Position numbers and translations under genes: made by a program. From Thunnus maccoyii (lineage: Eukaryota > Chordata > Actinopteri > Scombriformes > Scombridae), in contig NC_056544.1 in NCBI RefSeq assembly GCF_910596095.1, forward strand, positions 7,952,655-8,016,654: 64,000 bases of DNA. The letters are read 5' to 3'. The notes beneath the pieces were generated by a model, which did not search any database, was not told the origin of the DNA, and saw only the letters and a list, made by a program, of their open reading frames with translations. Positions within the stretch are counted from its first letter, which is position 1; each line of letters opens with the position of its first letter. Of this stretch, positions 1 through 56,108 are shown piece by piece.

Positions 1-381
1 CTGGCCACCCAGAATATTTATTATTCTTGTCAATAGATATAAAAATAACCTTTGTCTCTCTCAGGCCCGGTGCCAGGATGAAGTGACTGAGGGAGCTGTT
101 AAAAATTGCAAGGTGGCAATTTTTTTCATGAGATAACATGAATTGATTTAACCATGCAATAGCCTCAGGAGGGCTAAATAACAACATAAGGCTACTGTTT
201 AAAAATCAAAGAACACATTTCTTAATCAGAGCAATCCCAAAAATCATTCAAAATCAGCAGGAGGAAGAGTGGCTTTCAGCTCTCTATGTAGTACCACTTA
301 TTTCAGGCTTATCACATCAGGAAGATCTCAGATGAGCAAAAACGAGGAACTTTGGTTGGAATGTATAAAATACAATCCAGT

Positions 382-387
382 TTTATT
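382..387 (-). terminator. Poly(A) signal AATAAA, left CXorf38-like gene
   Basis: TTTATT on the plus strand, about 220 bases beyond the stop of exon 9'. A second one lies at 17-22. Assignment rests on position only. Confidence 0.4.
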
Positions 388-604
388 TAGGTTTTACAGG
401 TTATAAAAAGTAAAATACAAAGATTAAATGTAAAAGTTATAAAAAGGAAAAATATAATTTTAGAGCTAAAAGGAGTCAAAGAGGGATTTGTCCAAAAAAG
501 CCAAAAAAAACCCAAAAGGCAAAAAGCCCCGAGACCTCTTTGGCCCCTACTTTTATATCATTCATTACATCATTGTTAAAAGGTAAAAGATGCAGAGGTG
601 TCAG

Positions 605-660
605 TCAGATGCAGAAATCACAGCTCGCTTCGCAGGCCACATGCTTCCTGCTGTTCATAC
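605..660 (-). CDS. Left CXorf38-like gene, alternative terminal exon 9'
   Basis: The same acceptor and first 11 bases as exon 9, from a duplicated block. It then diverges and codes GMNSRKHVACEASCDFCI with stop TGA at 605-607; 18 codons. A canonical AATAAA (minus strand) lies at 382-387. Either an alternative last exon or a decayed duplicate. Confidence 0.4.
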
Positions 661-3600
661 CTGTAGCAGGGGTGTTAAGTTTGCATTAGAGTTCAGCTGC
701 AGTTCAGGTCAAATTGACAATTTTTCCATCCATGTATTAGTTAGTTAACAATTTTTAATTGAATCATTACAGAAAATTATTTGAGAGGTAGGTTTGGGTG
801 GGGTGTATCTCGGCATAACAGGTGAACACCTTTAACATCCTCTCTTGGCTGAGGTACACTCTGAGCCCTGCAGGAGGATGTTTGTGGTCATTGATGGTGC
901 TGGTCAGGGTAAAAGACTACACACATCTGTAACAAAGGTCTTTGAAACCACGCAGGGATAAACCTCATCCTGTCTACTGCCTGGCCATTTTTACTAGTAG
1001 CCCCTTAACAGCTACCACTGGTGTGACTGTGGTCAGGGATCAGGTATTTGTAATCACCTTACAGACTGAGACTCCATCCATACTACCAAGAGTTACATGA
1101 TCAATTATCCAATTTGTGCCCACAGCTGGATTTGTGCAACTGACATCGCCCTGCCTGTAAAACATCATAAAAGTAAAACAACCAGGTCAGCATTAATCCA
1201 TCTCGGAAAGGTGAGGGTGGGTTTCCTGGTCGTCGAAGGAGTTGGTGTGGTGAGGGAGTAATTCAGAGATGAAGGAGTCCCAGATCTTGAGTCTGGAGAC
1301 TCTAACCACAACTGGGCTGTTCATACCTGTAGCAGGGGTGTTAAGTTTGTATAAGAGTGCAGCTGTAGTTCAAGTCAAACTGAAAATTCTTCCATCCATG
1401 TATTAGTTAGTTGTTAATCTTTAACTGAATCATTACAGAAAATTAATTGAGAGGTAGGTTTGAGTGGGGTGTGTCTTGGGCATAACAGGTGGACACCTTT
1501 AACAGAGTCATGCTGACAGACATCAGTTAAATTAAACATGTTTTTTAGGATATTAACTGTTTTTTTGGTTAAGTTCATAGTCAACACCAGAGCCAGTGTA
1601 ACAAATGTAATTCTTTATAGATTCAAGTCTAAGATGGGTGAGACTCCTGTATTCTGGGGCTGTGGAGTTGAATAAGTTGCCTTCTTTAATTAACGATGAG
1701 TCAAATCCTTCTAGCTTTGAGTCAAAAGCAAAACAACGGCTACTAGCCAGAGATAATATGTCTTACCTAATTTTGGCTGAGCCTTCCCCACCAGAAACTT
1801 CCCCATCTTCATCCAGAAAGATTCACTGGCCTCCTGCTCAACAGCCTGCAGTTAAAGTGTAAAACACATGTTAAATAGTCTGATTGTGAGTGACTGGAAA
1901 CAACATGTATAATGATTGTGAGTTTGATTCATTCATGCTTTCACAACACTTTTCATAAAACTTAATGCTGATCCTGAAATTTCTGCTTTTTCAATAAAAA
2001 TATGTTTACATATTAAATTGTACTGAATACTGAGTTCAATCCATATGTGTTAATGTAGTATAAATGTTGTCAGCAATGCAGAGAAAATGAGAGTAGACGT
2101 CTCTGCTGGAGTCTCATTTATAAAGAGAATGGCAGCAGTATTGAAAACAAAGTTTAAGAGGCTGACAGCTGCAGCAGCTGTTAATGTAATCCTCAGACAC
2201 AAAGATGCACATTGCTGCACAGAGTCAGACAATGGACTGGTAAAGGAACGGGGACACATACATGACACCCAGTGAATCCTGCACCTGATGCATTGTGGAA
2301 TCATCTTTGGCATTTCAGCAGCACTGTGGTGCTCCACAACTGACCATGACTGAATGAGATACCCTACCCTCCAGCTCTGAGGGCTGAGAGTGTGATGGTG
2401 AGCCTGCAGTGCCTTGTGCTCAATATTTCAATGGTAGTTCAAATATAAATCACAGATATAATTGGTTAAAATTTGGGTTGTATGGTGTGATTATGGTTTA
2501 TAGAAGAACCAAGACATGTAACACTGCTGGCCTGAATGTTTATTAGACAATGGATCTGGATAAAACAACGACTGCTAGACAGAGGTCCTGAATGGAATGA
2601 TGGTACCTTGATATTTGCATCTTAACACAGTGTCAACCAACTGTTGTCGTTTATGACATGAGTCTGTTGTGATTTTATGTGGAGAACATTTTAAAAACAT
2701 TTTATTAATTGTTTGTTCTTAGGGTTGAGTTGTCTATGTTCAGTGTCTATGCTTTGGTTTTTTCCTCAACCCTGACTGCTAAAGTCTCATATTAGTGGTG
2801 GTTGAACTTGGACTTGAACTTGAACTTGGAATTCATTTTTGATCAGAATGAGGACTGTGGATTTAGTCCCCCGTCTTTTACAGTAGGAGGGATCACTTAA
2901 CAGCCAGAATGATCACAAGAAATAATTACAGCAACCATCACTTTCAAAGTACTTAGGGGCATGTGAGTATTGTTTAAAAACATACTCCAAAAGACGTGAA
3001 CCTATAAATTAATGTCTTACCAAGAATTCTTGCTGAACCATCTCTCCAATCTTCACCACCATCGTCCCAATATCATCAATGACCTTCTGCTTGACAGCCT
3101 GCAGTTAAAATGTAAAACACATGTTAAATAGTCTGATTGTGAGTGACTGGAAACAACATGTATAATGATTGTGAGTTTGATTCATTCATGCTTTCACAAC
3201 ACTTTTCATAAAACTTAATGCTGATCCTTAAATTTCTGCTTTTTCAATAAGAATGTGTTTACACATGAAATTGAACTGAATACTGAGTTCAATCCATATG
3301 TGTTAATGTAGTATAAATGTTGTTAGCAATGCAGAGAAAATGAGAGTAGACGTCTCTGCTGGAGTCTCATTTATAAAGAGAATGGCAGCAGTATTAAAAA
3401 CAAAGAGGCTGACGGCTGCAGCAGCTGTTAATGAATGCAACTGCAACAGTTATAAAAGGGGCCCTTGGTTTAGAAACATACATTAACAGATTGTTGTCCA
3501 CTCTGAGGCAGCAGAAACAAACTGTAAACACAACATTGATATATTATCACCCTTTAACTTAATTTGGTGACGTCTTAGCGAACAGCTGCAATTTTACACA

Positions 3601-6600
3601 TCCAGCAGCCACAGAGAAACATTAGCATTCATTTGTCTGTCTACCTGATGATGAGAGTTCAATATTTACTCTCCTTTTACCTCCTTTTAGGTTTTCACCA
3701 ACTCTTGACTAAACTATTTGTCTCTTTAGCTGCTAAATGCTCCACTACAGTCACCAGCAAGTTGCTAGCTTTGTCTGTCTGCTGTTTATTGCACAGTGGC
3801 TTTTTACACACAGAATAAGAATGAAAATAAGCCAAAGTTGTAAAAAGAATTTTAAATCCAAATGTGGAACTTGTGTATCTAACAGTATTCATAGCCTCTA
3901 TCATTTTGTCATGCAGAGCAATCATTTTCTGCTGTACCTTCAGCTTTTCTTTGTAGAAGAGATGTAGGGTCTTTATCTCCTCGTCACGCTCAGAGAGGGT
4001 TTTCTCCAGCTCCTCCACCTTCCTCCTGAGTAAGTCCTCAGTTTTCTTTGCTTTTCTGTTGTCCTCCAGAGCAGCCTAAAAAGTAAATGAAACATATATA
4101 CAGAATTAAAATGCTTTTAAAAAAGCATGTTTGAAAATAGAGCATTTAAAAAGTGTTTTTTGTGTCTTACAACAAGTTTATCCTCCAGTTCCTCTTTATT
4201 CTGAGCCTGATTGTCTCGTGCAAACAGGATCAAGTCAAGGTGCTGAATCTGAAAACAGAGAGGTTCACTTTAGTATTGACCTCATGCTGCCCACACATTT
4301 ACTATCCTGTTCCATTTCCAGTTTTGTCTCTTAACTTCTTATGGTGAAAACTTTCAAGAGCTCTGATGCTAAAATGTCAATACAATGATTATTTAAATTA
4401 TTACCAGATTATTAATTATCTCCATTATTTGCATTCTTCACAAACAATCATTAAACCACATTGTTTTTTAAAATTTTATTGGTCTGTTATCTGGTTTATC
4501 AGTGTAAATTAAAACACATCTTTTTGCCCAACTATGTAATATAACACATATCTTATTGATGAATTAGCTTGTTACATAATAAAAAACTGTGCCACAGAAT
4601 ACTGGACCATGTGTAATAGTGTAACAACCCTAATGACTTTCCACTGTGCGTTTTAGCCGAAGAATTGTATTAGCATTAGCATTTGCATTTGACTTCTTCT
4701 GTGGATATATCACATTATTATAAACATGTAATAAAACACAAATACCAACACTAGGCACTAGTCACCATGACTGTTTTAACAGTAACATGGGCAGCTGATC
4801 CTGGTGGTGTGTAGGTATTAGTGCCACTATGAAAATAGTGCTTGATGTTTGTCAGACTGCTGTAGAATAAAGCTATGTCAATCTTTCACGCAGTACGTTA
4901 TTTTATAAATCAGATATTTGCTTAAATGTAGGCACATGATGATCTCAAGAAGCAGATGTCAATGTGCACAATGTGATATCTCCACTTGTGGTGCAGAAAG
5001 GAAGTTAAGAGACAAAATTATGGAGTCGGAGCATTTTCTTGTAGCTGAAATGCATAAAGTCAATAAGTCTTCTTAGTCCAGTTATGTCCTGGATGGAAGT
5101 TTAACAGTACAATCTGTAGTCCAACTGTAAACAAGAACAAACGTTTGTATTTTACAGTTAAAAATCAACTTGACAGTGCTCTCTGGCAGACAAACCAAGA
5201 CACAAATGACCTCAAATCCAGTCTGGCATTTCTGTAATGCTGGTTTTTGTTATTTATCAGCTGACATATACACTATACACTAAATCTGCAATAAGCTTAT
5301 AATAAATACTCACTGGGCACTTAATTAGGAACACCCGTGCAATCGAATGCAATCCAATACAAAAGCTCTATTCTACTTTATGTCTGTCATTGAGGTCTTT
5401 GTGGGTAGTGGTGGTTTACTAGACTGAATTATATTGAGTCCTGTAACAAACACAATCTGTCAGGCTCTACTAATTTGGCCCTTAAGGATGATGCTGCCTT
5501 CTCAAAATTGAACCAAATGTAAGTGATCTTCTCCTTTCAATGATTCGTGTTGGAACCTGCACACAGCCAACAGAATTGTGACTGAGTACTGACTCTTTTT
5601 CCTGACAAACAACTTACATCTCCATCCTCTCTATTATCACATGCGTGTTTACATATTTGTAGGAACTAACTTTATTAGTTAAAAACCATCTCCACATATG
5701 ACATATAAAAATATGCTCTGCTTTGAATAATATTTTGTGTCTGATTTGGTTTTTACTTTTTTTAAAATGATTTAAAAACTATGTAAATATTGTTTATTTG
5801 AAAAGTTAAACTGCTGTACACAAGATATCTGCTACTTCATTGAAAAGTCCAGTCTCAGTGCACTGAAGGTTTCAAACGAAAGAGGTTAATTTCAAGTTAA
5901 ATTTGACACAGCAGTGTGTTTTAAGTAATTAATAAAGAAACTATCACTGGGAGAAATGTAAACTACATATAGAGTTAAATGGGTAATCTAATTTGAGTAC
6001 TTAAATAATATCTTATACTGTGATAAGAACCACTAAGTGCTGTTCCCATCGCAAATACTAGTCAAGAACGACAAAGTATGATACAGTAACTTATTGTTTG
6101 TTTTTGCATTATCCCTTTAAATTAGACAATACACAATAAAACATTATACAATAAAATACACAGTAGAGGAGAAAAATGGGAAAACATGTACCTCATCAAT
6201 TTTTTGAGACAGACTTCCAAAGTTGGGATGATGTTTCACCAGCACCTTACACAGTTTTCTGATCCGTTTCATGTAATTGTCCAAATCCTTTTTCTTCAGC
6301 TGGTAATATGGAGAATGCATGATACTGTTCCGGACAAAGGAAACCTAAAAAAGATAGAGACCTTATTAAGGCTGCAACTAACCATTATTTTCATTATTGA
6401 TAAATCGATTAATCAATAAGCCTATGAATTGTCATAAAATAGTGACAAATGACTGGTAAGTGAAACAGAGGAGATGTATTAAAATGTCTTTTTGTCCGAC
6501 CAACAGTCCAAAACCCAAAGATGTTCATACATAGAAAATAAAAGCATTAAAGCTGGAGCTGGAATCTGAATTTTTGGCATTTTTGCTTAAAAAATGACTA

Positions 6601-9600
6601 AAACAATTAATCGATTATCAAAATAGTTGCAGATTAATTTTCTGTCGATGGATTATTCAATTAATTGTTGCTGAGACGAGGTTCGAGAATTGGCTACATT
6701 ATGTATAAATGCAACCAAACTCACAATATGGTCATTCTTAGTGGCATCATATTTTTCTGTTTTTGCAGTCAGACAACTGAACAAGTATCAATGATTGATT
6801 TAGCTCATGTTACCTGTTAACCAAGAGGGGGCAGCAACACCTGCTGCTGCTGCACTAATAATGTCAATCGTGTTGATATTTCATGCTCTCAAAATGCTAC
6901 GACAACAAAAAGATAAATACAGTTTCATGATAACATCTGTACTACTGTGTGATTGTCTATAGTGACATTTAAAATGAGTGACTGCATAAAAAGTTAGAGG
7001 CAGCAGAAAGTTGACAGTATATGACCATATCTGAGCACACAAATGAAGATGGTGTTTGTATTATTGTCAGTATTGTTTAACCTACTATTTTTATTAATAG
7101 ATGAATTGTATAACACAAAAAAATGTGAAAAAGAATGTTTGGCTTTTTGCATGTGCATCCAACAACATCTGTTTATTATTTTCAAATTTAATTTTAATTC
7201 AATGTGCAATATGTGTGTGTGTGTACAAATAAGCATTTACCTCTTCACACAGCCCTCTGAGCTTAAACTTCTCGAAGTGCTTGCATTGATTCATGAGACA
7301 CAGAAGTGCAGCAATGTCAAAATCACCAAGTGAGTTATGGTTCTTATGGCCATTTGACATGTACACCTGAAAACACAACAAAAAATCATCAATGTGACAC
7401 TTTACTCACAATCAGACCAAACCAACTTGACATAAGAAAACTTGATGGAAGCAAAAATGATTTGCTGCTAAGAGAAAAAGCACCAGACTGGAAACTTACC
7501 TTAGCCACTTCCCATTTATCTTGGGACCACAGGTGAGGTTTACTGTTCGTCCACATCACTTTTCCGTTCTGATTGGAGTGGTGAGTCCGTATCTCATCTC
7601 TCCAAGTAGTGCACACCTCGCAATCAAACAGAGGAATCTGCAATCAGCAACATAAAATTAGAATCACAGTAAAACAAAAGGAAACCAACGGTTAATGGTT
7701 AATAAAGCATTCAAATCCATTCATTATCAGCTTAATAGTAATTACAACGGCAACTATTGTTGACAGATTATTGTATGAATTGTGTAATTCATTACTTATT
7801 AACATTTATAACCGTAGATGAGTTGACAACTTTTGCTGAATATTGAATAGATAGTGAGTATATATTAATTACCAACTAATGATTATAAAAGAGAGCTTTA
7901 CTTCAAACAACGACATGAGAACCTCCTGATTTGTAAAGGGGACGTCAAATGATTTCAGCTCTGCTTTGCTGTTCTATGTTTTTAATATTTAAAGTACTGA
8001 ACATTATTAGAGGTGATTTTTAAAATTCACATCATATTAGATTTTCACAAAGCTTATTGTACTCAGGGCTAAATTTAGGAATAAATGTGTCTCAAAGAAG
8101 GTTTCAGCAGATGTCCAGTCATAGGAGGAAATAAAAATACAAAATTAAAGCTGCAAGCAGCGATGATCGGGCCCTCGCGTCCTTGCGTATGTCGGGGCTC
8201 GGCGCTGGTGAAGGGCTTCTGTCACGGGCATATAGATGTCCCCTGACCTGGGCTGTTTTCAGACATTGCAAGGGGAGATTAACGTCACATCCTCAATCAC
8301 CTACTCTGCATGCTGCAGGGGCTGCTGCATTGAAATGTCGTAGGGGGTGCTATGGAGCCAGTTTTCATCACTGACTGAATATTGCTATTTAGACGTGTTC
8401 AGGCTGGGAGTCTTATCAAACATGAAAAGTTTGGTGTAGACTCGAGCATTTACACTAAACTTATAGGACTTTCACCTGTCATGGCGAAACATCAAAACTC
8501 AACGCCACGCCACGGCCACACGCTTCAATGCTAAGTAAATGTTTTGATAACTTTTGATCACACACTAGTGTAGATGACACACACTGATTTTGAAGTCGTT
8601 ACCATGAATTCTGTAGGAGGAGTTCGTTAAAATACAAGGTATGCGAAATGGTCAAAAAAACGCGAAAAATGACCACTTTTATCAAGATGGCCGACTTCCT
8701 GTAGGACTTACGATATGGCTCCAAGAGGCTTTTTTGTGCGTCTTGACATGATACATAAGCCTCCCGAATTTCATTTTCCTAGGTTAATCTGGAAGGCGGG
8801 GCTACCATTTTGAAATTGTCAAGGGGGCGCTGTTGAGCCATATTGTCACGTCTATGCAAATGACCTATCCAGGATTTTAACTGGTGTCGCTCCAGACATG
8901 TGTGTCAAGTTTTGTGACTGTAAACCCATCCCTTGTCCCTGAAAAACAGTATCGTATTTCTTGGCGAAGGATTTGTCGCCATGGTAACAGCGTTTGGTTT
9001 TGGGTCATGACCTGCCAAATATAGCATCACCAAGGTCTTGTTTATTAGCTGACTTAATTTCAGGTGCATCAGTCAAATTTCCTAGGAGTAATTACACAAA
9101 GTACGACGCATGTTACTTCCTGTTGCCAGTAGGTGGCGATATGACTTTCGCTAAATATGAGACTGAGCATGTGTTCAGACCGGGACTCTTAACAAGCATA
9201 TGAAATTTGGAAAAGATCAGACCACGTGGAGTCAAGATATAAGGCTTTGAAATTTCATGGCGAGACATCGAAATTCGCCGCGTCGCCATGGCAACATCTT
9301 TCAGCGAAAAGTCACCAACTTCATAATGTACGAACTCCAAGGTCTTGAGGCTATTCTGAGTAAATTTGAGGTGGATCCAATCACTGTGCTACCCACAGGG
9401 CGTCGGAGCGTAAAACATGTAACTTCCTGTTGCCAGTAGGTGGCGCTATGACTCAGATCCAATATTGTCACATGGATGTGTTCAGGGCAGGACTCTTAAT
9501 CAATCACAAAAGGTTTGGGTCTCTTGGGATCATGTATGCCGGAGTTATGGCCGTTTCAAATTTCATGGCGAAGGATCGAATTTCACCCCCCAGCCACGCC

Positions 9601-12390
9601 CCCTTGGCAATGACGAAAACTCACCGTTTTGATAACTTTTAATCTCCTATGTCTGTAGATGATACAGACCGAATTCCAAGTGGCTGAGGTCAAATCTCTA
9701 GGAGGAGTTCGTTAAAGTATGCAGGCTGGAAATGACCAAATCGGTGTCAAAATCGCAACTTTGACACAAAATGGCCGACTTCCTGTTGGCGTTAGGGTAT
9801 GTGTCCAAGAGACTTTTTGGTGCGACTGGTCATGATACATATGCATACTGAATTTCGTTCTCCTACGACAATCTGTATCGAGGGGCTCAATTTTCCTAAT
9901 TTCCTAGGGGGCGCTATCGAGCCATTTTGCCCCGCCTTTTTGCGAGACCCATAAAATATCAAATTTTTCACCACTTCTGATGTATGTGCAAAGTTTAACA
10001 ACTTTTCGTGCACGTTTAGGCCCTCAAAAATGCGTTTGTTTCGGAAGAATAATAATAATAGAGAAGAATTCCTTGAATTACAATAGGGCTTCGCACCGGT
10101 AGGTGCTCGGGCCCTAATGAGTGATATCAAAATGATAAATGCAGTATATTTTTCATATCAGGAATCATTCTATTGTCAAACATCAGAGAGTCTATCAATT
10201 TAGACCCTTTTCACCACATTACCACCAGTTAACAAGTGATCTAACAAATTAACCTTTAGCCTTTTCAGGGGAAAGAATATTTCATTTTTCCTATACAGAG
10301 TATAATCCTTCTTTATTTTGCCTTTTGAATCAGGGATGTCTACGAGAAATTTCAATATTTTTATTAAAAAAAGAGAGGCATTTTGGATTATGGATTTCCA
10401 AAGTTTATCTCTGGGGGGCATGAATGAAGATTTCGCAATTAATGAGTTTCTGTAGTGGTTTTTTAATACCTCTCATTTATGTGGATTTGTAGTGTTTTTT
10501 ATGATATATTTTTTATGATATATCTTTCATGATGGAATTTTTAAATGATGTATTATGATTTTTTATTTTTTATCACTTTTTAATTTTTATTTTTATTTTT
10601 TATTTTTAATCAATTTATATTGTTGTACTATGCATCTTTCTGCTCCCTCTATACACAGCACTTTATAAAGCCTGTATGCCATATCTAATTGGCACATTTT
10701 TGGATGAACCCAAGTACCACCCCCTAGTTGCACCTTTCTAGTTAAGGGACCAAATATGGTGTCACCCATGTTCCTTCTTGGACACTCCCCTTGCGTCTGT
10801 TAATCTTGGACAACGATTGGCCTGAAACCATATGACCATATATCCAACCCATCTTTGTAGATGTCCTATTGGCTGATAATATGATTGGTTGTCTTTTATA
10901 TATATATATATATTTTTAACTTTTTTTACATTTACAGTAAAATTTACAACATTCCTATTTAAATCCGTCCCATTAGCAGGTTTGGGAAAAATCACTTTGG
11001 ATTTTTGGTCTATAAGACATTTTTGAATGAAGTCTGTCTTGAACCAGGTATTTGATATAGAGTCAGGATGCGCATACCTACTGTATAAGCACATAATGAG
11101 GAGAAGTTTAAAGAAAATTGAAAGTGAAATTAAAGCTGAATAGAAAGTGAGTATTTATTAATTACCAACTAATGCTTATAAAATAGAGCTTTACTTCAAA
11201 CAATGAAATGAGAACCTCCTGATTTGTAAAGGGGACGTCAAATGATTTCAGCTCTGCTTTGCTGTTCTACGTTTTTAATATTGTAAGTATTTTAAGAAAT
11301 TAGTTCTTTTCACCACATTACCACCAGTTAGCAAGCAATCTAACAAATGCACCTTTAGCCTTTTCAGGGGAAAGAATATTTCATTTTTCCTATACAGAGT
11401 ATAATCCTTCTTTATTTTGCCTTTTGAATCAGGGATGTCTACAAGAAATTTCACTGTTTTTAATAATTACAGTACAGCATATTTTTCACCCAAAAAACTG
11501 ATTGCACATTTACAACATTCATATTTAAATCCGTCCCATTAGCAGGTTTGGGAAAAATCATTTTGTATTTTTGGTCTATAAGACATTTTTGAATGAAGTC
11601 TGTCTTAAACCAGGTATTTGATATGGAGTCAGGATGTGCATACCTACTGTATAAGCACATAATGAGGAGAAGTTTCAAGAAAATTGAAAGTGAAATTAAA
11701 ACTTGTAAGAATTGAGTAATAGCACTGAATCCTAAATAGAGTAGATAAAAAAATATAAATCTGGTGCCTCATTCAGGTCACTATCAGTGATTACAGAGGC
11801 AGAAGTGTATTTAGATGTCAGCTTTGAAATGACTGTTGACACTTTCTGTCTGCTGTTTTCAGAACCATTCACCTGAGAAACATTAACATTATTTTGACAG
11901 TAGACTGTCAGCTGTGAAATGCACATGATGACAGCAGAAACTCGGTGTGATAGCATATAGTGAAGTATAAATATTAATTTAAGTCATATACTGGTAACAA
12001 ATAAACAACAAAGCGTTAACATTTCCTTTTTAACGTAGTTTGGACCACTTGGGAAGCCAGACACAAGTTAGCCATCATAATGACGTTAGTTTTATGGGAA
12101 CTTCCTAGATAATGCAAGGCAGTATGTTAACTGACATAAAATGTAGGCCTACATGCACAGTGGTTAAATTAAGTTCATACCGGTTGGTTATGCGTTGGGT
12201 TCCAGTTTGAAAAATCGCAGTTGTTGGCACACGGAACAGAGCCGCATTGTTCGGTCATTAGTTGGTGGAAAACTGTTATTTCCTCTTCGATGAACGGCTC
12301 CAGATATTCGCGAAGACATCCTAAGATAATAACGCATTTCAAACAATTCATGGTTTCAGACTTTCCATTCAATTCCCGAATGATGTCCAT
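605..12390 (-). CDS. CXorf38-like: Left CXorf38-like (DUF4559) gene, whole coding span
   Basis: Multi-exon gene, product of unknown function related to human CXorf38. Coding exons in order: 12181-12390, 7500-7637, 7241-7366, 6192-6344, 4171-4248, 3884-4075, 3021-3098, 1767-1845, then either 1193-1326 or 605-660. All junctions are phase 0 except the last (phase 1), and all introns read GT/AG. Predicted length is 395 aa, or 369 aa with the alternative end. The family match is seen in exon 1 (a short alpha-helical start ending with paired Cys), exon 2 (C-x2-C, then H-H, N-G, and a W-E-V-A-K end), exon 3 (acidic, A-L-L) and exon 4 (R163-N-S-I-M-H168). Exons 5-6 are charged, coiled-coil-like helix absent from the right paralogue. 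It lies head to tail with the right paralogue, about 1.1 kb away, which suggests tandem duplication. I inferred the exon joins by eye; no transcript was available. Family assignment is firm, the 3' end less so. Confidence 0.72.
651..838. repeat. Duplicated block carrying last-exon acceptor, copy 1
   Basis: About 187 bases repeated at 1317-1503 with roughly 90 percent identity. Both copies hold the same CTACAG acceptor and GTATGAACAGC exon start (minus strand). Confidence 0.85.
1193..1326 (-). CDS. Left CXorf38-like gene, terminal exon 9 (longer option)
   Basis: Acceptor CTACAG|GTATGAACAGC, phase 1. With the G from exon 8 it codes GMNSPVVVRVSRLKIWD and on to HLSEMD, stop TAA at 1193-1195; 44 codons. 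The phase match to exon 8 and an open frame throughout support it. No canonical poly(A) signal lies between this stop and the second terminal exon. Confidence 0.5.
1317..1503. repeat. Duplicated block carrying last-exon acceptor, copy 2
   Basis: Direct repeat of 651-838, offset about 666 bases. Outside the block the two regions differ. Confidence 0.85.
1767..1845 (-). CDS. Left CXorf38-like gene, exon 8 (duplicated exon, copy 2)
   Basis: 79 bases between ACTGCAG|GCT and TTAG|GTAAGA. It enters in phase 0 and leaves in phase 1. Product starts AVEQEASESFW and ends AQPKL. One base longer than its sister exon 7, and this shift fits the phase 1 acceptors of both possible last exons. If read through, the frame closes soon after in a short hydrophobic tail. 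Confidence 0.55.
1841..2186. repeat. Duplicated exon-plus-intron block, copy beside exon 8
   Basis: Direct repeat of 3094-3434. About ten substitutions and one 6-base gap over roughly 335 bases. It covers the acceptor of exon 8 and the adjoining intron. Confidence 0.9.
3021..3098 (-). CDS. Left CXorf38-like gene, exon 7 (duplicated exon, copy 1)
   Basis: Twenty-six codons between ACTGCAG|GCT and TTG|GTAAGA, phase 0 to 0. Product starts AVKQKVIDDIG and ends VQQEFL. The upstream intron is a near-identical copy of the intron upstream of exon 8. Because both ends are phase 0 it can be skipped without loss of frame. Confidence 0.6.
3094..3434. repeat. Duplicated exon-plus-intron block, copy beside exon 7
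   Basis: Sister of 1841-2186, offset about 1.25 kb, same orientation. It carries the acceptor of exon 7. Confidence 0.9.
3565..3800. repeat. Interspersed repeat (family shared with 42630-43045)
   Basis: Shares stretches with 42630-43045 (cagcagacacagagcaacatt-like start, tagctgctaaatgct, cagcaagttgctag). It overlaps the open frame extension after exon 6. Confidence 0.6.
3884..4075 (-). CDS. Left CXorf38-like gene, exon 6 (coiled coil)
   Basis: Sixty-four codons from TTTTAG|GCT to ACT|GTTAGA, phase 0. Strongly charged heptad-like sequence (VEELEKTLSERDEEIKTL and on to MIEAMNT), typical of coiled coil. The open frame runs on to a stop at 3695, but that extension reads into an interspersed repeat (about 3565-3800), so I end the exon at the weak GTTAGA donor. 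An earlier phase 0 donor, AAG|GTACAG, near 3926 is an alternative. Confidence 0.65.
4171..4248 (-). CDS. Left CXorf38-like gene, exon 5
   Basis: Twenty-six codons between TTTCAG|ATT and GTT|GTAAGA, phase 0. Sequence is IQHLDLILFARDN and then a Glu/Lys-rich helix (EELEDKL). It has no counterpart recognised in the right gene; probably the start of the coiled coil. Confidence 0.68.
5305..5460. repeat. Interspersed repeat fragment
   Basis: Contains CACTTAATTAGGAACACC and GCAATCCAATACAA, hallmarks of a repeat seen widely in teleost genomes (recalled, not searched). It lies in intron 4 of the left CXorf38-like gene; the rest of that intron (4249-6191) is AT-rich with nothing I recognise. Confidence 0.5.
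6192..6344 (-). CDS. Left CXorf38-like gene, exon 4 (R-N-x-x-M-H motif)
   Basis: Fifty-one codons, acceptor TTTTAG|GTT and donor GAG|GTACAT. It begins VSFVRNSIMHSPYY. The RNSIMHS stretch matches RNELMHS in the right paralogue and RNEIMHS in human CXorf38. It continues as a Lys-rich helix. R-x4-H of this kind is the active-site signature of HEPN domains; that link is my inference. Confidence 0.8.
6362..6672. repeat. Interspersed repeat (GCTGCAACTAAC type)
   Basis: Starts GGCTGCAACTAACC and ends near CAATTAATTGTTGCTG, with internal GTCCGACCAACAGTCC and CGATTATCAAAATAGTTGCA. A common teleost repeat. The same internal motifs recur in the inverted repeat at 51350-51890. Lies in intron 3. Confidence 0.7.
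7241..7366 (-). CDS. Left CXorf38-like gene, exon 3
   Basis: Forty-two codons, acceptor TTTCAG|GTG and donor GAG|GTAAAT, phase 0. The segment DFDIAALLCLMNQCKHF corresponds to [17 protein letters not shown] in the right paralogue. This is the helix just before the R-N-x-x-M-H exon. Confidence 0.8.
7500..7637 (-). CDS. Left CXorf38-like gene, exon 2
   Basis: Forty-six codons, acceptor TTGCAG|ATT and donor AAG|GTAAGT, phase 0 on both sides. It contains CEVC (C-x2-C), a THH motif, NQNG and the end KWEVAK. Human CXorf38 has the same layout (CQVC, RHH, NRNG, AWEVAK). A Cys present here in the human protein and in the right paralogue is Ser in this copy (WTNS against WDNC), so a metal site, if there is one, may be altered. 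Confidence 0.8.
7902..7973 (-). other. Unassigned exon-like block C, copy 2
   Basis: Seventy-two bases, open in phase 0, between a TAG acceptor and GAA|GTAAAG. Product NSKAELKSFDVPFTNQ and on to LMSLFE. A near-identical copy with the same frame lies at 11195-11266. Not matched to any known protein, and absent from human CXorf38. Could be a cassette exon of the left CXorf38-like gene or a relic of another gene. Confidence 0.35.
8145..10113. repeat. Interspersed element of about 2 kb with internal duplications
   Basis: Begins TTAAAGCTGCAAGCAGCGAT near GGGCCCTCGCG and ends GGTAGGTGCTCGGGCCCTAA. Inside, motifs such as CTTCCTGTTGCCAGTAGGTG (9117 and 9423) and AGGAGGAGTTCGTTAAA (about 8615 and 9700) recur, so it is built from 0.3 and 1.1 kb units. 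No protein is encoded. Teleost elements with these ends are common (recalled). It sits in intron 1 and separates blocks B and C of the exon-like array. Confidence 0.75.
10200..10360 (-). other. Unassigned exon-like block B, copy 2
   Basis: Open frame reading DIPDSKGKIKKDYTLYRKNE, then FFPLKRLKVNLLDHLL, stop at 10200. Near-identical copy at 11302-11442. Few changes between copies and both open. Protein not recognised. Confidence 0.35.
10930..11095 (-). other. Unassigned exon-like block A, copy 2
   Basis: Open frame with YAHPDSISNTWFKTDFIQKC and PKPANGTDLN. Copy 1 at 11505-11680 is nearly the same. A TACAGTAG acceptor-like sequence precedes it. Protein not recognised. Confidence 0.35.
11195..11266 (-). 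other. Unassigned exon-like block C, copy 1
   Basis: Same as 7902-7973 apart from a few bases; frame and GTAAAG donor are kept. Confidence 0.35.
11302..11442 (-). other. Unassigned exon-like block B, copy 1
   Basis: Same frame as 10200-10360, with two amino-acid changes in the last third (N to H, H to C) and no stop until beyond the block. Confidence 0.35.
11505..11680 (-). other. Unassigned exon-like block A, copy 1
   Basis: Open frame with the TWFKTDF and PKPANGTDLN motifs, duplicated at 10930-11095. Order on the minus strand is A-B-C, then A-B-(2 kb element)-C. Confidence 0.35.
11732..11872 (-). other. Possible alternative exon after exon 1
   Basis: Strong acceptor (TTTCTCAG|GTG), then 46 open codons (VNGSENSRQKVSTVISK, TSASVITDSDLNEAPDL) and a TAG stop at 11732. 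Phase 0, so it joins exon 1 in frame and would give a 116-aa short form. No homologue recognised. Confidence 0.35.
12181..12390 (-). CDS. Left CXorf38-like gene, exon 1
   Basis: Seventy codons, ending CCG|GTATGA. The start ATG at 12390 has G at -3 and G at +4. The segment NCLKCVIILGCLREYLEPFI lines up with the exon 1 helix of the right paralogue ([20 protein letters not shown]) and of human CXorf38. It ends in a Cys pair (C-x3-C). It lacks the Lys-Asn-Trp start of that helix seen in the paralogue, so it has drifted. Confidence 0.75.
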
Positions 12391-12421
12391 ACCTTAACAA
12401 ATTTTTTTTTTTACAGGATGA

Positions 12422-12439
12422 TACCTGTACGTACAGGTA
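12422..12439. promoter_or_regulatory. Perfect 18-base palindrome upstream of left gene
   Basis: TACCTGTACGTACAGGTA is its own reverse complement. It lies 32 bases before the start codon of the left CXorf38-like gene, next to a TATATA at 12441-12446. Probably in the core promoter or 5' leader. Confidence 0.5.
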
Positions 12440-12440
12440 A

Positions 12441-12446
12441 TATATA
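12441..12446 (-). promoter_or_regulatory. TATA-like element, left CXorf38-like gene
   Basis: TATATA about 50 bases before the ATG at 12390. Upstream at 12521-12537 (minus strand) is GAAATGAAACCAAAAC, an interferon-response-like run. Position-based call only. Confidence 0.35.
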
Positions 12447-13504
12447 AAGCACACGCCCCTGTGATTGGGTCGCCTCCGCCAATCAGGAGGCTGGAAAGTC
12501 TCACATCGCCTTATGTCTTGGTTTTGGTTTCATTTCAGGAATGTTTGCTTTCCGTTTGTGACTGATTTAGTTTTCATTTTGACCAGATTCTGTACTCCAC
12601 CAAAATTTTGAGCAACGTTTGAACTGTTTTCCTATGTCACACATTTCATAAATAGTTTAAAACACCAACAAAAAGCTTTCATAACTTACACATTTAATAT
12701 AGTTGACCACAACAATGGTTACCAATTTCTCTGCAGACTGTTACTTTTATTGCAGTATTTTTGCAGTGAGGTACTGCTACTTTAACTCAAGTAAATGATC
12801 TGCATAATTCTTCCACCACTGAATGAAGCTTATCAAATGTTTTTCAAGTTTAGAATAAGGTTACAAATGATAAAGTTAGGTTTAGGCTGGAAACACATGA
12901 TTTCAGGTTTCCCAAGAGATTAGGTTATGGTTATGTTTGCATTAGTTTGTGGATGGTTAATGTGAGACATTAGTTGTGGTTAATGTCAATGGTAAGGATC
13001 AGGAAGGGCCTTCCATCTCTTGACCCTAAACGTCTGCAGGATCTGTTTGGTCAGGATCAGGCTGCACCACCAAAGTACCAGCATAGTATCACACTGTGAA
13101 AGTAGTGCATAAAAATCATGACTCTTCTTAAACACCAGAACAGAAATTCCCACAATATCTTGACAATAAAGCGCTGTCCAATAAGACTGAATAGATATGA
13201 GTCTGATTTCCATGATTTAATGGAAACTTAAAGCATCTTCTAGCAAGTTCTGGGCAGGTGCATATACATTATTATTATTTACTTATGGTCTAAACTGTAG
13301 CTTGTTCATGAACATCTGCCAGACAATAAGACAAACAGCAATATATAAACATAATCATGATTACAAATAAAAATAAAACAATGAGTAAAACAAACAAGCA
13401 GAGCAGACAAAGCTAAATGTTATAATCTCTCTTTGACAATGATTCAATATTTTGTGGCTGTATAAGCACTTGGGTCCATTTCTGTTCTGTGCACATTTTT
13501 ATTT
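12447..13504. other. Region between the two CXorf38-like genes
   Basis: Holds the upstream region of the left gene, a tail of an interspersed repeat at about 12738-12825 (ends ATTCTTCCACCACTGAATG) and, near 13505, the 3' end of the right gene (AATAAA at 13498-13503 and ATTAAA at 13216-13221, minus strand). No further gene seen. Confidence 0.5.
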
Positions 13505-13609: not shown

Positions 13610-16600
13610 CTGAAAAAAGAGAGAGCTGGTTGAAGTCATGTGACATCTTTATATACATCTTTAATATCACGCATTGACTACTGCAGCTCCTTACTGGCAG
13701 GCCTCCCCGCATGTACGTTCAAACCTCTGCAGATGATCTAGAACGTGGCGGTGCGTCTGGTCTTTAACCAGCCCAAAACAGCACATCACCCCGCTGTTGA
13801 TATCTCCCTCCACTGGCTCCAAGTTGCTGCCCGCATCAAATTCCAAACCCTGACATTCGCTTACAAAACAGCGACTAAAACGGCTCCTGTCTACCTAAAC
13901 TCCCTCATTCAGGTCTACACTCCCTCCCCTTCACTAGGCCCTGCCAATGAAAGGCACCTGGTACCACCTTCACAACAGGAGTCGCTAGCTAGACTCTTCT
14001 CCTCTGCAGTTCCCCGGTGGTGGAACAAGTTATCAAACTCTGTTCGATCTGCAGAGTCTCTCTTAATCTTTAAGAAAAGACTAAAGACTCAGTTCTTTTG
14101 CGAACACCTCTGCACTTCATGGACTGAAGGTAGAGAAAAAACAAAAAGACAAAAATTTAAAAAACAAAACAAAACAAAAAAAAACTGCTTCTTTGCAATC
14201 TACGCACTCAATGCATCGCATTGCTTAGTCGTGTTGTTGTCTCCTGACTAGATCCCTGCTTGTGTTGTATCAGTCTCAGATGAAGGTCGCTTTGGATAAA
14301 AGCGTCTGCTAAATGAAATTGTAAGTTGTAATCTGTCTTTTTTATATATTATGTGTATGAGTGCAAGTGCACATGCATATTATACAAATATTCAATCTAA
14401 CATTTATCACTGGTAAGATCACAACTCCATGAAAATCAGATCAGGTCATTCAGCTGCATAAGGGGAGTCTCAACATGAATCCGTGGTTAACAGGAAGCTG
14501 TGCTCTTATCTAGACTATAACTGTTCTCAAAGTGTTGTATAATAAGATACTATGCAAAACCTCATGTGGACCAACTGGTGCAGAATCTGCAGATAAAAAT
14601 TGGTTTCTTGTTTTGGAATAAAGCATGTTTAGGACAGGAAACCCTCTGTGCAATCAACCATCATGTCTGTGTTTGACTATGGAGATATCCTGTACTCTCC
14701 TGTCGCTGACTCCACCTTAATTCATCCCACTGGATAAATTCAAACTTTTAATTTTGAACATTTTTGAAGATGTCTCTGTGTGACTCGCTGTGTTTTGTTG
14801 TCTTATCTCTGTTCTGCTTCTCCTGCTGATCTAACATCTCCCCCTGCTAAACAGCTCTTGATCTAAACAGGACCACCTGTTTGAATAATATATACATATA
14901 TATATATAAAAATTTGTTCTTCGTACCAGTGTCTTTGTATCGTCATCAACAGGAGCAGCAGCAGCATGAAGTAACTCCTGCAGCCTCTCTTGTAGCAACT
15001 CAGCCTCCCATTGACTGATCAAGTCAGCGTTGATCTTCAACTGGCTCGCAGAATCAGACTCTAATCCAACCGAGTCAGCAGAATCCATCTGGTCCTGACC
15101 AGAGGCATATATTGACAAATCAACGCTCAGCATCTGGAAGAAAAACAAAGAAAATGCACGCAAACTGTGACGGAACACAACACTACATTTCAACGGGATC
15201 AGTGAACAAACACAGACAAACATGCTCACATCGTTTATCTGTTGTTCAACTGCTGCCATTTCTGGTACGTTGCTGAACTGTCGCACAAGGTGTGTCAGAG
15301 ACGTCTGGTAGCGCCTCATCCAGTCGTCCCTCACTCGGAAATCACTAGAATGCATCAACTCATTCCTGTATCGTATCACCTGGAACCACACACACACACA
15401 CACACACACGTTACAGAATACCATTTATAACAACAAATTATCACATACTGCAAAAAAAAAAAAAAAAAAAAAGAATCCCGTCCCATTAATATTGACTTCC
15501 AGCGAGATGCCATCTCTCTCTGGGTCAATCTAACAAATACACTCACATCACTCATATCTCTCCATAATTCTTTCTCAGGCCAGTCACAGTCATTTTTCAA
15601 AACTAGGTTTGGGATGCAATATATTTATAATGTGTTTAATTATAAACATATGAAAATAAGGTGTGAGACTGAGTGTAATATACATTTACACTGAGTGCAA
15701 ATTATTTCTTTTAGTCAACACACATAGCAATTTAAATTATGATGTAGTCAAATGTGCATTATAAACTTTATTTTACTGACTGTAGTGTGCTTAATTCTAT
15801 TATTCTCTCTATTCATACTGCTTCTGATGTTTTTCATTGTTTCATCACTTCCTACTGTTTATATCCTTTTCACGTCAACCGTTATCTAGATTATTATTGT
15901 TTACTTCTCTGACATCTTGTTGTGTCAAACAGTGAAAATGGAAATCCAGTTTATGCATGTGCACACTGTCTCACAATGAGAGAGTTTATTTAATAGAACC
16001 ATGCATGCATGTGGCTTTATCGTGCGCATATTTTCACATTTGTGCACACACACACAGAGATTTAGTCTGCTTCTGCTAAAAAAAAAAAGCCATGTGATAA
16101 TTCTCTGACTTAAAGACTTGAGAAGGACTGACCAAAAGTAGCCTTACAGGCCCGTTTTAATAATATATATAATAATATATAAAAGGCATGTGTGTTTACC
16201 TCTTTCACATGTTTTACATCCACACTGAAATAATTACAGTAGTTGATCAGGTTGAGCAGAGCAGAGGCATCGCATTCATGTGCACCCTTCACTTTTACCT
16301 GACCTCGAGGCATATAAGCCTACAGGAAGAGAAAGAGAGAGAGACCTCCATCAGACGCACACGTTCAGGTGAATCTTTAACACCTGCTGCAGACTGCTTG
16401 AAACCTTCAAGTATTTAAGTCATATTTTCCTTTCAACAAGTCAAAAATGCAGCAAGTTTGACTTTACTTGACCATGTGATAAGATCATTTGACAAATTTC
16501 GCTTGATTTTCTGAAACACTCTCTGAACATTCAGTGCAATCTCCGCATCAGCTCGAAGTGAGCAGCGCAGCAACTTCATTGGTCTGGCAAAAGGCCGTCA

Positions 16601-18787
16601 TTCGCTCAGAACGTTTCAGTGAAAAAAAATCAATCAGTGAGTGCACCACTGCCATTAGTGACATTTTCCTCCTTTATCACTGCTTAAGTCAAGACAGTCA
16701 AATGTCAGAACTGTGTCAGTGTGAAATCTGCTGAAATAGATTTCTGCATTTCATTATTCACTGAAACTTACAAAAAACAAAATAAGTGAAAAAATATCAA
16801 TACACAGTTTTATATTTTTTAATTCACAGTTTTAGATATGATTCTGATTTTTTTGTCCTATCCCCCCCCCCAATTAAAAGACCTAGACTGCTTTGAAAGC
16901 AGCTAAAAAATGATCAACTCCAAAGAAAAAAATTCATTTTCTAGGAGCATTGTGACAAATTCTGAACAGACAACACCGAGACAAAAGAGGCATTTATAAA
17001 TATTCTATAGATTGACAAGACTGTGCAAACAAACTACACATAGGAAACTCTCAACAGACCTCAAACATCCTCTATAGCCAATTAAAAAATATAAAAACTA
17101 AATCATGTCACAAATATCATATGAACACCAAAGTCCGTTCAATAGTCGCTGTCAGCGTTCGCCTTGTGTACATTTTCACTTAATGTTGAGAGAAAATTAA
17201 CTACGGAATAGAGAATTGCACAGTGTTTTGAGGATGATGATTTCCATTTGACGGTAAAATGGTATTCATAGCACTGTGTAAGTTGTGGTTTGTAGACTAC
17301 CTTGGCTAGTTCCCAGTGGTCTGTCCTCCAGGAGGGAGGGGAACAGTTGTCCCAGTTCACAGTGGCATCAGGCTGTCTGTGGTGTGAGAGGATCACTGTC
17401 TGCCACAATGAACACGCCCTGCATACCCGGGAAAGCTGGGGACATAGTGACACACACACAGACACACAGACACACACACACATATCAGACTGTCTGTATG
17501 GGTTTAGTTGTTAAATAGACTCATTTTAACTGATACTTTATGCAAGTTACTGTGCAAACAAGTAAGGAATATTAAAGATACAAGTACCTGTCATGGAAAG
17601 TTGGAGTACATTTACTCAAATACTGCACTCAATTTTGAGGAACTTGTAGCTTTACTTGAGTATTTCCATTTGATGCTACATTATACTTCCATTCCACTAC
17701 ATTTCAGAGGGAAATATTGTACTTTCTACTCCACTACATTTATTTGACAGCTTTAGTCACTGTTCAGATGAAGATTTGACACAATAGATAATTTAACAAG
17801 CTTTTAAAATACAACACATTGTTAAAGATGAAACCAGTGGTTTCCAACCTTTTGGACTTTTGATGTCTTACAAAAAGCAGTGTGTAGTCGGGGTCACATT
17901 TCAGATGTCTATGAGTTGTTAACAGCTCCACCAAATAGTGATTTTTCCCTTTAAACTTCTCACATGGTTTGATTTCAATAAATGTTCAAATGATCCAATG
18001 TTTCACCAAATATCATCAAAGATTAGAGAAAAAGTCTAAAAAGATTTGTGTATCAGAACTTTTAATCATCTCATGACCCCTCAGATTTATCTGGTGACCC
18101 TTTAGAGGGGCCTGACCCCTAGGTTGGGAACCACTGGACTAAACTAGCTAACTGTATATAAAGTAGTTGAAACTAGCTTCACCTCCAGTAGCTACAACAG
18201 TAACATGCTGCTCTAACACTGATGCTTCAGTATCAATAATCTAATGATGTCATATATAATAATATATCAGTCAGAGGAACCAAACCACTACTTTTACTGC
18301 AATACTTTAACTCCATCAAGCTCATAATACTTATGTACTTTTATGTACTTTGCATGCAGGACTTTTACTCGTAATGGAGTATTTTTACCTTGCTGTATTG
18401 GTACTTTTACATAAATAAAGGATCTGAATACTTCTTCCACCACTGATAAGTACCATATGTCCACAATAAACTCAGAACATGTCACAGTCACTCTGTAAGG
18501 CGTTATATCTAAATAAAACAGAATGCAAAGGGGATTCAATTGGAAAAAAAAACGAAACCTGAGCAGGATTTACAACTAACCTTATTGGCTCTGAGTTTAC
18601 ATGAAGAAGTCTCACACGGTGTCCGTAGATGAGAGTTTTTATTGAGCAGATCTCTGTGGAAAGCTCGCATCCGGTTGTTGACGAAGGGATGGAGGCCATC
18701 CTTCAGTATAAGCAGACACCGTCCTGCCTTCAGCCAGTTTTTGTACTCTCTGTCGTTGAGTCGGAACTCCAGCTCCCCGTGAACCAT
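13505..18787 (-). CDS. CXorf38-like: Right CXorf38-like (DUF4559) gene, whole coding span
   Basis: Six coding exons: 18581-18787, 17301-17435, 16200-16319, 15230-15379, 14927-15133, 13505-13609. All junctions are GT/AG and phase 0; predicted 307 aa against 319 in human CXorf38. Aligned marks: EYKNWLKAG start helix, CRAC and SHH with [26 protein letters not shown], then R159-N-E-L-M-H164, and a Glu/Gln-rich C-terminal helix ([15 protein letters not shown]). Human CXorf38 has EYKNWVKAG, CQVC, WEVAK, MPRG, ECDAVALLSLIN and RNEIMH at the same places. Function is not established; exons 3-4 look like a HEPN-type helical domain by motif. No frameshift or stop. The start ATG (A at -3, G at +4) is the one that begins the family's conserved N terminus. 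Confidence 0.87.
13665..14335 (+). mobile_element. 5'-truncated LINE 3' end (L2/CR1-like)
   Basis: Reading frame for the C terminus of a fish LINE reverse-transcriptase protein ([53 protein letters not shown]). It is broken by an in-frame TAG at 13739-13741. Ends with the common tail TCGCTTTGGATAAAAGCGTC near 14290. Inserted in intron 5 of the right CXorf38-like gene, opposite strand. Confidence 0.8.
14927..15133 (-). CDS. Right CXorf38-like gene, exon 5
   Basis: Sixty-nine codons between TTCCAG|ATG and CTG|GTACGA. Ser/Asp-rich linker, then amphipathic helix [16 protein letters not shown], matching the IEMQLLKEKLQEIYL helix of human CXorf38. Confidence 0.82.
15230..15379 (-). CDS. Right CXorf38-like gene, exon 4 (R-N-x-x-M-H motif)
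   Basis: Fifty codons between TTCCAG|GTG and [25 protein letters not shown] followed by [13 protein letters not shown] and the NVPEMAAVE end, as in human (NIPEIVAV). Confidence 0.88.
16200..16319 (-). CDS. Right CXorf38-like gene, exon 3
   Basis: Forty codons between CTGTAG|GCT and GAG|GTAAAC. AYMPRG start and [14 protein letters not shown] helix. Confidence 0.87.
17301..17435 (-). CDS. Right CXorf38-like gene, exon 2
   Basis: Forty-five codons between CCCCAG|CTT and AAG|GTAGTC. CRAC (C-x2-C), SHH, NWDNC and HWELAK are the conserved points; Cys and His spacing hints at metal binding together with the exon 1 Cys pair. Confidence 0.87.
17580..18445. repeat. Interspersed repeat interrupted by a MITE
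   Basis: Runs from GAGTACATTTACTCAAATAC to GATCTGAATACTTCTTCCAC in intron 1 of the right gene. Relatives lie at 12738-12825 and 38760-39075. A MITE is inserted at 17835-18136. Confidence 0.7.
17835..18136. mobile_element. hAT-type MITE
   Basis: Ends CAGTGGTTTCCAACC and GGTTGGGAACCACTG form terminal inverted repeats with one mismatch. Flanks GATGAAAC and GACTAAAC agree at 6 of 8 positions, fitting the 8-base target duplication of hAT elements. No transposase inside. Confidence 0.75.
18581..18787 (-). CDS. Right CXorf38-like gene, exon 1
   Basis: Sixty-nine codons, [12 protein letters not shown] to KLRANK, donor AAG|GTTAGT. Contains the YKNWLKAG helix and a C-x4-C pair. Confidence 0.87.
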
Positions 18788-19130
18788 CTTGTCCTGTCTT
18801 CCTGACAGGAAACATAACAAAGGAGCAGCGCAAGTTCAGACAAAGTCCTCGTGTTAAGCTCCACCCAGGCAGTGCAACCGACGCAAAAGCCACAAGGTGG
18901 AGCCATCTACCTTAGAAAGCAAGGCCGTGCTGCTCCCTGTTTACCAGGAGGATTACAGATCCATGAGACAGAGTGTAAATTGTTAGGGTCTGATGGGATG
19001 TGTCCACAGTTTGAGACTTGGCTCTGTGCATGGAATCTCACACAGAGCAGGCTGTTTGAAACAATGTGGTTTCAGCAGCCTTACCTGGCTGAAGTGTAAC
19101 TTGTAGTTTTCCTGTCGAGATTCATGACTA
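18788..19130. other. Upstream region of the right CXorf38-like gene
   Basis: No gene seen. Moderately GC-rich around 18840-18990, expected to hold the promoter; no clear TATA box. Confidence 0.35.
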
Positions 19131-47639: not shown

Positions 47640-49310
47640 TCAAGTCAAGTTTATTTATATAGCACATTTCATACGACAGGCGTAAACTCAATGTGCTTAA
47701 ACACAAAAGCAAAAAAAAAGATCACACATGACAAAAACATATAACATTATATTAACATTACATATATAAAACATGTAAGACAATATATAAAATTAGCAGG
47801 TAAGAAGGTATTACAATAAGGAGAGTATGATGAGAAGGTATTCTTCTTATTAATATTAAAAAGGAATAACAATAATAATACTGATTCTAAAATGAAGATT
47901 TTACCTGTTAACCACACACTTCAAACCTAACTAAAAGCTTGCGAAAAAATATGTTTTTAGTCTGCTTTTAAAAGAAGACACTGTTGTAGCAGACCAGAGC
48001 CCATGTGATAGAGAATTCCAGAGCGTAGGACCACAATGACTGAAGGCATTATGAGCTGATTCAGAGTTTATTCTCGGTATAGTGAGGAGACCTTTATTTG
48101 ATGATCTCAGGGGTCTGTCTGGTGTATATTCAGAGAGCATGTCAATGACGTAGGAGGGAGCTATGTCGTTCATAGCTTTAAAAATAATAAGAAGTATTTT
48201 AAAATTAATTCTTTGTTTTACTGGGAGCCAGTGAAGAGAAGTTCAAATAGGAATGATGTGTTCACACCGAATGGTTTTAGTTAATACTCTGGCTGCTGGA
48301 GTTTATTTAAAACCTGCTTTGCCGTTCTGGCAAAAAGTGCATTACAATAATCTAGTCGACTGGAAATAAAATAATAATTTATTAATAATAATAATGCACA
48401 AACCAACTTTCCTGAATCTGACTGTGATAGGAAAGATCTAACTTTAGATATATTTCAAAGATGATAAAAAAGCAGAGAGCACAGAGAGCTACGATCAGCA
48501 TCCAAAATCACACCCAGGTTTTTTTTACATGCTCACAGGGTTTTACTGACAGGGGAGTTAACACAGAGCAAATCTGGTGCCTCAAAGCCTTTGGACCTGC
48601 TAAAAGAATCTTTGTTTTGTCTTCATTTAGCTGTAAGCAAATTTTGGCCATCCTATATTTGACATCAGTAATGCACTGGATGAGATCATTCACTGGGTTA
48701 AAGTGGTTGGCAGAAACAGATATGTATAACTGTGTGTTGTCAGCATAGGAGTGATATGATATGTTGTATTGTTGAGTGATGGACTCAAGTGGGAACATAT
48801 ATAAATTAAACAGCAGAGGACCAAGAATTGACCCTTGAGGGACCCCATATGGAATGCTGACTTCATCTGATTCAAAGTTACCAAGAGAAACAGAGAAAGA
48901 TCTACCAGTAAGGTATGAAGAAAGCCAGTTAAGAACAGTGCCTCTAAGGCCTAAACAGTGTTCAAGGCGCTGAAGGAGAATTACATGGTCAACTGTATTG
49001 AAGGCAGCACTGAGGTCGAGAAGTACCACAACAGAAACTTTATGGTTGTCAGAGCTAATTTTAAGATCATTCACAACTCTGACCAGGACAGTTTCTGTAC
49101 TGTGGTTGACTCTAAAACCATACTGGTGAACATCAAATAAATTGTTATGTGACAGATTTATGTGCAATTGTTGATATACAACATTTTCAAGAATTTTTCC
49201 ATGGAATGGTAGGTTTGAGATTGGTCTATAGTTCTCAGGGACAAATGGATCAAGATTGCTCTTCTTTAACAACAGTGTTATGATACCATGTTTGAGAACT
49301 GTAGGGAAGA
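47640..49310 (-). mobile_element. 5'-truncated L2-type LINE
   Basis: Minus strand. 49272-48508 is a reverse-transcriptase core: NYRPISNLPF, HSTETVLVRVVNDL, VVLLDLSAAFNTVDH, GVPQGSILGPLLFNLYM. The active-site motif reads YADN instead of YADD, so the enzyme is dead. 48173-47931 holds the C-terminal NAFSHCGPTLWNSL and SSFKSRLKTYFF. The 3' end is the typical AAGTCAAGTTTATTTATATA (plus strand, 47640). Frames are broken between the parts. Confidence 0.88.
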
Positions 49311-49540
49311 GTCAAAACTCGTCCCCTAACCTTAACCACATTATTATTACTGTAACCATGATGACGAAGGTCGTCTTACCTTAAGGAGGTAGTAAGTTCA
49401 ACCCAAACCACGTTTCCCTTTGTGTCCCATTTGGGAAACCTACCCTTATCTTTCCCTAAACCTAACCAAGTGGTTTTTGTGCCTAAACCTAACAAGACCT
49501 TAACCACAGCGTTGTCACACCATAAAACATTGTTATTTTA
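49311..49540. repeat. CCTAAACCTAACC-type repeat region
   Basis: CCTAAACCTAACCAAGTGGT with CCTAAACCTAAC again, a degenerate repeat common in fish DNA. Confidence 0.5.
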
Positions 49541-55870: not shown

Positions 55871-56108
55871 CTTGCGCTGAGAGAGCAGCACACCTCCAGT
55901 AGAGAGAGAGCGGAGCGCATCCAGAGTGCGCATTGAAAGACATATGGAATATTTATTACATGCTTTATACTAAAAAAACAGCCCCGGTGAGTCGACAAGT
56001 GCGGGGAAGGAATAGTTTTTTTGTAGGTGCGTTTTGTTTAAACTCTAAATTGGACTCAGTTGTGACAGTTTGCTGAATTTCAGATTATTTTGGAGTGAAG
56101 GTGTCAAG

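Follow-up and report, generated by a model that had tools for sequence, protein, structure and literature searches.

Near-identical introns beside strongly diverged candidate exons in an inverted pair of CXorf38-like genes of Thunnus maccoyii

The window, a stretch of 64,000 nucleotides of Thunnus maccoyii, carries a gene (gene 1) on the minus strand of positions 1-12,400. The assembled exons of gene 1 match the Pfam family DUF4559 (CXorf38 family; HEPN-type). The match to the curated model PF15112 reached 186.5 bits (E 1e-54) against a cut-off of 27; the protein used for this comparison included an exon, D, that has since been withdrawn. Exon 4 encodes RNSIMH (R-x4-H), which we take to be the HEPN motif. 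Gene 1 resembles the CXorf38/DUF4559 HEPN family in both the Pfam match and RNSIMH. However, the Pfam match stops at residue 279, within exon 6, and candidate exons B and A lie beyond that point. In a passage of a HEPN protein survey, CXorf38 is counted as one of the HEPN families, with a suggested role in defence against RNA viruses (PMC3710099). Among the literature matches listed for CXorf38, DUF4559, exon/intron conversion, and exon duplication, the locus was not described, and a search for relatives in viral contigs, genome contigs, and plasmids found none. The features are as follows.

12178..12390, minus strand: exon 1 of gene 1, end approximate, 53.5% identical in amino acids to its counterpart in the inverted paralogue
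7500..7637, minus strand: exon 2, CxxC part of the DUF4559 domain, approximate ends
7241..7366, minus strand: exon 3, approximate ends
6192..6344, minus strand: exon 4, with RNSIMH
4171..4248, minus strand: exon 5, 78 nt
3884..4075, minus strand: exon 6, coiled-coil-like, weak donor GTTAGA
3099..3433, minus strand: intron block I1 before exon B, 10/335 mismatches with the A copy and 5/335 with the gene 0 copy
3021..3098, minus strand: candidate exon B, 78 nt, phase 0 in and out, AVKQKVIDDIGTMVVKIGEMVQQEFL, donor GTAAGACATT
1846..2186, minus strand: intron block I1 before exon A, aligned to the B copy
2125..2186, minus strand: outer ~62 nt of the A block, a dispersed repeat to which 24 of 29 genome matches are confined
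1767..1845, minus strand: candidate exon A, 79 nt, phase 0 in and phase 1 out, AVEQEASESFWMKMGKFLVGKAQPKL+G, donor GTAAGACATA
2588..8147, no strand assigned: the part of a large inverted duplication that lies in the window; gene 0 forms its second arm, at C12:7939358-7945902
C12:7937036 to ~7946000 (L009, L010), outside the window: gene 0, the inverted paralogue

The putative boundaries of exons A and B were placed by splice consensus and open reading frames. Exons 4, 5, 6, and B each contain a whole number of codons. Exon 6 could be the final exon of gene 1 because its donor (GTTAGA) is weak and its reading frame is open as far as 3698. Exon 5, which has the length of B and a similar donor, had no detectable relation to A or B (P 0.63 and 0.64), while the start of exon 6 compared with A gave P 0.04, one of six comparisons. 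The copies at 650-837 and 1316-1504 (90% identical) had been drawn as two alternative last exons, C and D, and end 11 nt past an AG that resembles an acceptor. We withdrew these exons because the copies are a dispersed repeat found at 22 further places in the genome and homology beyond the repeat was not demonstrated (P 0.05-0.21 and 0.06).

A second, older CXorf38-like gene is located at 14834-18835 on the minus strand and has YRNELMH instead of VRNSIMH. Farther along the window, 51346-51792 matches itself on the opposite strand in the manner of a palindrome (88% over 454 columns). An open frame at 48511-49311 on the minus strand resembles a LINE reverse transcriptase, and an 849-codon open frame at 56049-58595 on the plus strand carries what we take to be cadherin-type repeats, probably of a protocadherin.

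The first-pass annotation had placed an exon and intron duplication at exons A and B, and its coordinates were borne out. Its count of about ten differences in the block agrees with ours: the A and B copies of I1 differ by 10 mismatches in 335 aligned bases and by one 6-base indel (97.0% identity). The candidate exons share A-V-x-Q at their start, as it had reported, and diverge strongly thereafter. Their identity, previously put at ~58%, was 55% ungapped and 68% with the best single-codon gap in our recount. At 24 of the 75 aligned codon sites the exons differ, against 10/335 in the intron (Fisher P 2e-12), which upholds the earlier claim that the exons have diverged more than the intron beside them. 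By maximum likelihood, the change in rate falls 5 nt inside the exon, with a 1.92-unit support interval of 0 to +5. Exons A and B are homologous over their full length (51/78 matches, codon-shuffle P 5e-5), and P remained 5e-5 when the first 4 or 6 codons were removed. Similarity between A and B was not found to extend more than 9 nt beyond the donor (P 0.92), nor into the sequence upstream of the block (P 0.12). Synonymous sites also exceed the intron, with 3 of ~14 differing against 10/335 (P 0.012). The ratio of transitions to transversions was 11:13 in the exon and 7:3 in the intron, with no difference between them (P 0.27). Since the exit phases differ (phase 0 for B, 78 nt; phase 1 for A, 79 nt), A and B would not be interchangeable, mutually exclusive cassettes.

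Gene 0 lies upstream of the window, tail to tail with gene 1. A genome search with the HEPN part returned seven matches, namely, three exons of gene 1, three of gene 0, and one in the older paralogue at ~17.3 kb. From exon 2 to exon B, the non-exon sequence of the two genes is ~98% identical; over 5,511 aligned columns, 33/764 exon sites and 83/4747 non-exon sites differ. The exon excess (exons 2-6 and B) gave P 3e-5 by Fisher tests, which ignore clustering in this comparison, and P 0.045 when tested by circular shift, a procedure that takes it into account (0.083 without exon B). Synonymous sites (9/146; 146.3 before rounding) differ more often than non-exon sites (83/4747, P 0.0015), as do nonsynonymous sites (22/588.7, P 0.0025), with no difference between synonymous and nonsynonymous (P 0.25). 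In exons 2-5 alone, nonsynonymous divergence was 2.0%, one third of the synonymous value of 6.1%, and appears to be that of a constrained protein.

Exon 1 differs between gene 0 and gene 1 at 60/201 sites (synonymous 16.5/38.7, nonsynonymous 43.5/162.3). Intron 1 aligns in four collinear pieces, in which 36/927 sites differ (P 6e-25 against exon 1 as a whole and P 7e-12 against its synonymous sites). This step from exon 1 to intron 1 indicates that the gene pair is old and that its introns have been made alike. Intron 1 is itself more diverged than the non-exon sequence downstream (83/4747, P 1e-4). The sequence upstream of exon 1 gave no alignment between the two genes; therefore, exon 1 may mark the border of the homogenised stretch instead of forming an island within it. 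The age of the pair and the likeness of its introns hold in both cases. Divergence peaks in two places, exon 6 and a stretch made up of exon B and up to 80 nt of the following intron. Divergent patches also occur in introns away from exons, with 7/50 differences at 4888, 4/50 at 4688, and 4/50 at 6788. Exon 6 of gene 0 has a one-base frameshift that would truncate the protein before the counterpart of B. Within intron 1 of gene 1, pieces at 7844-7996, 10207-10384, 10942-11137, and 11137-11703 are repeated at 94-96% identity in changed order and contain open frames, and related pieces are present in intron 1 of gene 0.

Gene 0 holds B0, the counterpart of B, and a second exon copy, X0. B and B0 differ at 6/78 sites, all within the last 44 bases. 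The patch continues into the intron behind the exon, where the first 80 bases contain 12 differences and the sequence from there to column 141 contains none, so it extends beyond the exon. X0 agrees with B0 at 5 of these 12 intron sites and with B at 6, and we therefore name no donor for the patch. X0 and A share a codon absent from B as well as the bases following the donor. Among the exon sites, 13 group A with X0, 12 group A with B, and 6 group B with X0, which weakly suggests that A belongs with X0. Among the copies of I1, those of B and B0 form the closest pair, with 5 differences, and that of A stands apart, with 10 and 13; A and B were accordingly not exchanged very recently. X0 lacks the usual acceptor and is open in frame with a shifted one; as drawn, all four exon copies are open in frame and keep GTAAGA donors. 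The downstream intron is related in B and X0, with 20/125 differences, including 8 within the first 20 bases. Against this yardstick, the upstream intron of A and B has too few differences (10/335, P 3e-6), whereas the exons have too many (A/B 24/76, P 0.013; B/X0 30/66, P 2e-5).

One option raised by the first-pass annotation was that a mobile intron block, equipped with an acceptor, had been placed ahead of unrelated sequence. We searched a 429-base query against the 782 Mb genome; all counts are lower bounds. At least 29 matches were obtained, four of them in or adjoining the locus (three over the whole query, one over 136 bases); two of these copies lie in the window, and a full and a partial copy, both belonging to gene 0, lie ~6.6-7.6 kb upstream of it. 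Among the other matches, at least 24 fall wholly in the outer ~62 nt and one of 78 bases lies elsewhere. The dispersed repeat in the outer ~62 nt fits a mobile block. However, no full copy of the block core was found at unrelated loci in this lower-bound search, no tRNA-like head was found in 1-13000, no Rfam match was found within the window, and inverted pairs in and around the blocks are just 10-17 nt long. Moreover, homology between the exons reaches the donor, and an exon homologous over its full length is not foreign sequence behind a mobile acceptor. We regard a mobile block as extremely unlikely, and the earlier proviso that the block might prove to be a high-copy repeat does not hold for its core. 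The low divergence across 335 nt would also suit a block kept as a functional regulatory RNA or DNA element. However, the RNA fold of the A copy is ordinary (z-score 0.15) and low divergence between gene 1 and gene 0 extends over kilobases of other introns, which makes a functional element very improbable.

Diversifying selection alone would involve a recent block duplication (3%), after which change in the exons ran many times faster than neutral. In favour of such selection, 21/24 changes between A and B are nonsynonymous (dN 0.46, dS 0.25), as are 6/6 between B and B0, and HEPN/CXorf38 proteins are proposed in a part of the HEPN survey for host-pathogen conflict (PMC3710099). However, synonymous sites are raised too, codon positions 1 and 2 (19/50) did not differ from third positions (5/25, P 0.19), and B0 has changed although the frameshift in gene 0 would end the protein before it. 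We simulated exon divergence with the intron rate as the neutral rate, except where 0.055 was set, and kept runs with 21-27 exon changes. A recent duplicate needed ~16-20 times the neutral nonsynonymous rate to reach 24 changes, and at least three synonymous changes then arose in 6-7% of kept runs. When the neutral rate was set to 0.055, 8-12 times sufficed, with at least three synonymous changes in 13-19% of kept runs. A neutral older exon (rates 0.3-0.6) gave equally few synonymous changes as observed in 8-13% of kept runs, and purifying selection at an omega of 0.3 did so in 0/1,617. By these simulations, purifying selection did not constrain the divergence of A and B; selection and neutral drift are not separated. 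Diversifying selection on A and B is possible, with contrasts of nonsynonymous and synonymous change that are not significant, and neutral decay was not rejected (P 0.08-0.13). We consider selection alone unlikely. A combined account, in which a palindromic pair of HEPN immune RNases undergoes intron conversion while strong selection diversifies a tandem C-terminal exon tail against pathogens, is in our view quite unlikely. The main rival is that A, and perhaps B, are untranslated relics that drifted neutrally while conversion reset the introns only, and it has the conversion step in common with the explanation that we favour. Relic exons would agree with the neutral rates above, the unlike exit phases of A and B, the loss of the usual acceptor in X0, the frameshift in gene 0, and the weak donor of exon 6 with the open frame beyond it. 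However, all four copies remain open in frame, X0 by its shifted acceptor, with GTAAGA donors kept, and the exons exceed the yardstick intron, which plain drift does not predict. We hold the relic reading to be a tentative possibility.

We favour gene conversion of introns over an old tandem exon duplication, with the exons escaping, as the probable explanation, to which selection on the tails may add. An A-type and a B-type exon would have arisen by tandem duplication inside a HEPN gene of the CXorf38 type, which forms one arm of an inverted pair of genes. Repeated conversion among the copies would then homogenise introns, while exon stretches escape and retain their older divergence, which for A and B would have built up without detectable purifying selection. 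The exons may be spared either through selection against converted exons or through conversion tracts that stop at them; we infer both conversion as the homogenising process and the cause of the escape. This explanation is favoured because high exon divergence, low intron divergence, and raised synonymous divergence together are what conversion with spared exons would leave. Of the earlier interpretation, intron homogenisation is supported by synonymous exon sites that exceed introns in all three comparisons (P 0.012, 0.0015, and 7e-12), and the mobile acceptor is not supported. All copy comparisons were made within one genome. Several observations speak against this explanation. The step between A and B, no more than 5 nt from the splice site, is sharper than the ends of conversion tracts need be, and the exon excess between gene 0 and gene 1 reaches only P 0.045 in the circular-shift test, with divergent patches in introns as well. 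The spread of the B/B0 patch into the intron, the possible position of exon 1 outside the homogenised stretch, the weak grouping of A with X0, and the distance of the A copy of I1 from those of B and B0 also count against it.

A similar contrast has been described in primate L/M opsin genes. In a portion of a study on gibbons, introns are less diverged than exons at synonymous and nonsynonymous sites alike, a contrast considered unlikely to be due to divergent selection on the protein (PMC3213168), and, for opsin exon 5, a section of a review reports a peak in divergence under conversion (PMC3924837). As far as these portions describe the opsins, the present locus is like them in having introns less diverged than exons, raised synonymous divergence, and a peak at an exon. 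In contrast to the opsins, the copies here are tandem exons in one gene plus an inverted second gene, and the exons are far more diverged and are candidate exons without a known functional difference. In venom toxin genes, an excerpt reporting Deshimaru 1996 states that the mature coding sequence is less conserved than the untranslated and signal-peptide parts (PMC8078745). Here, too, the candidate exons are less conserved than the adjoining noncoding sequence; however, positive selection is given for 16 sites in that excerpt, whereas it was not significant in the present case.

The pattern is ordinary in kind and unusual in setting. If the combined account of intron conversion and selection on a C-terminal tail were the true reading, exon divergence would be decoupled from intron divergence across the locus. 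If the favoured explanation is right, one gene and its mirror copy would provide a compact case in which old exon divergence is kept while introns are reset, and a warning against dating exon duplications by intron identity. It would also point to rapid C-terminal change in a little-studied HEPN family proposed for antiviral defence.
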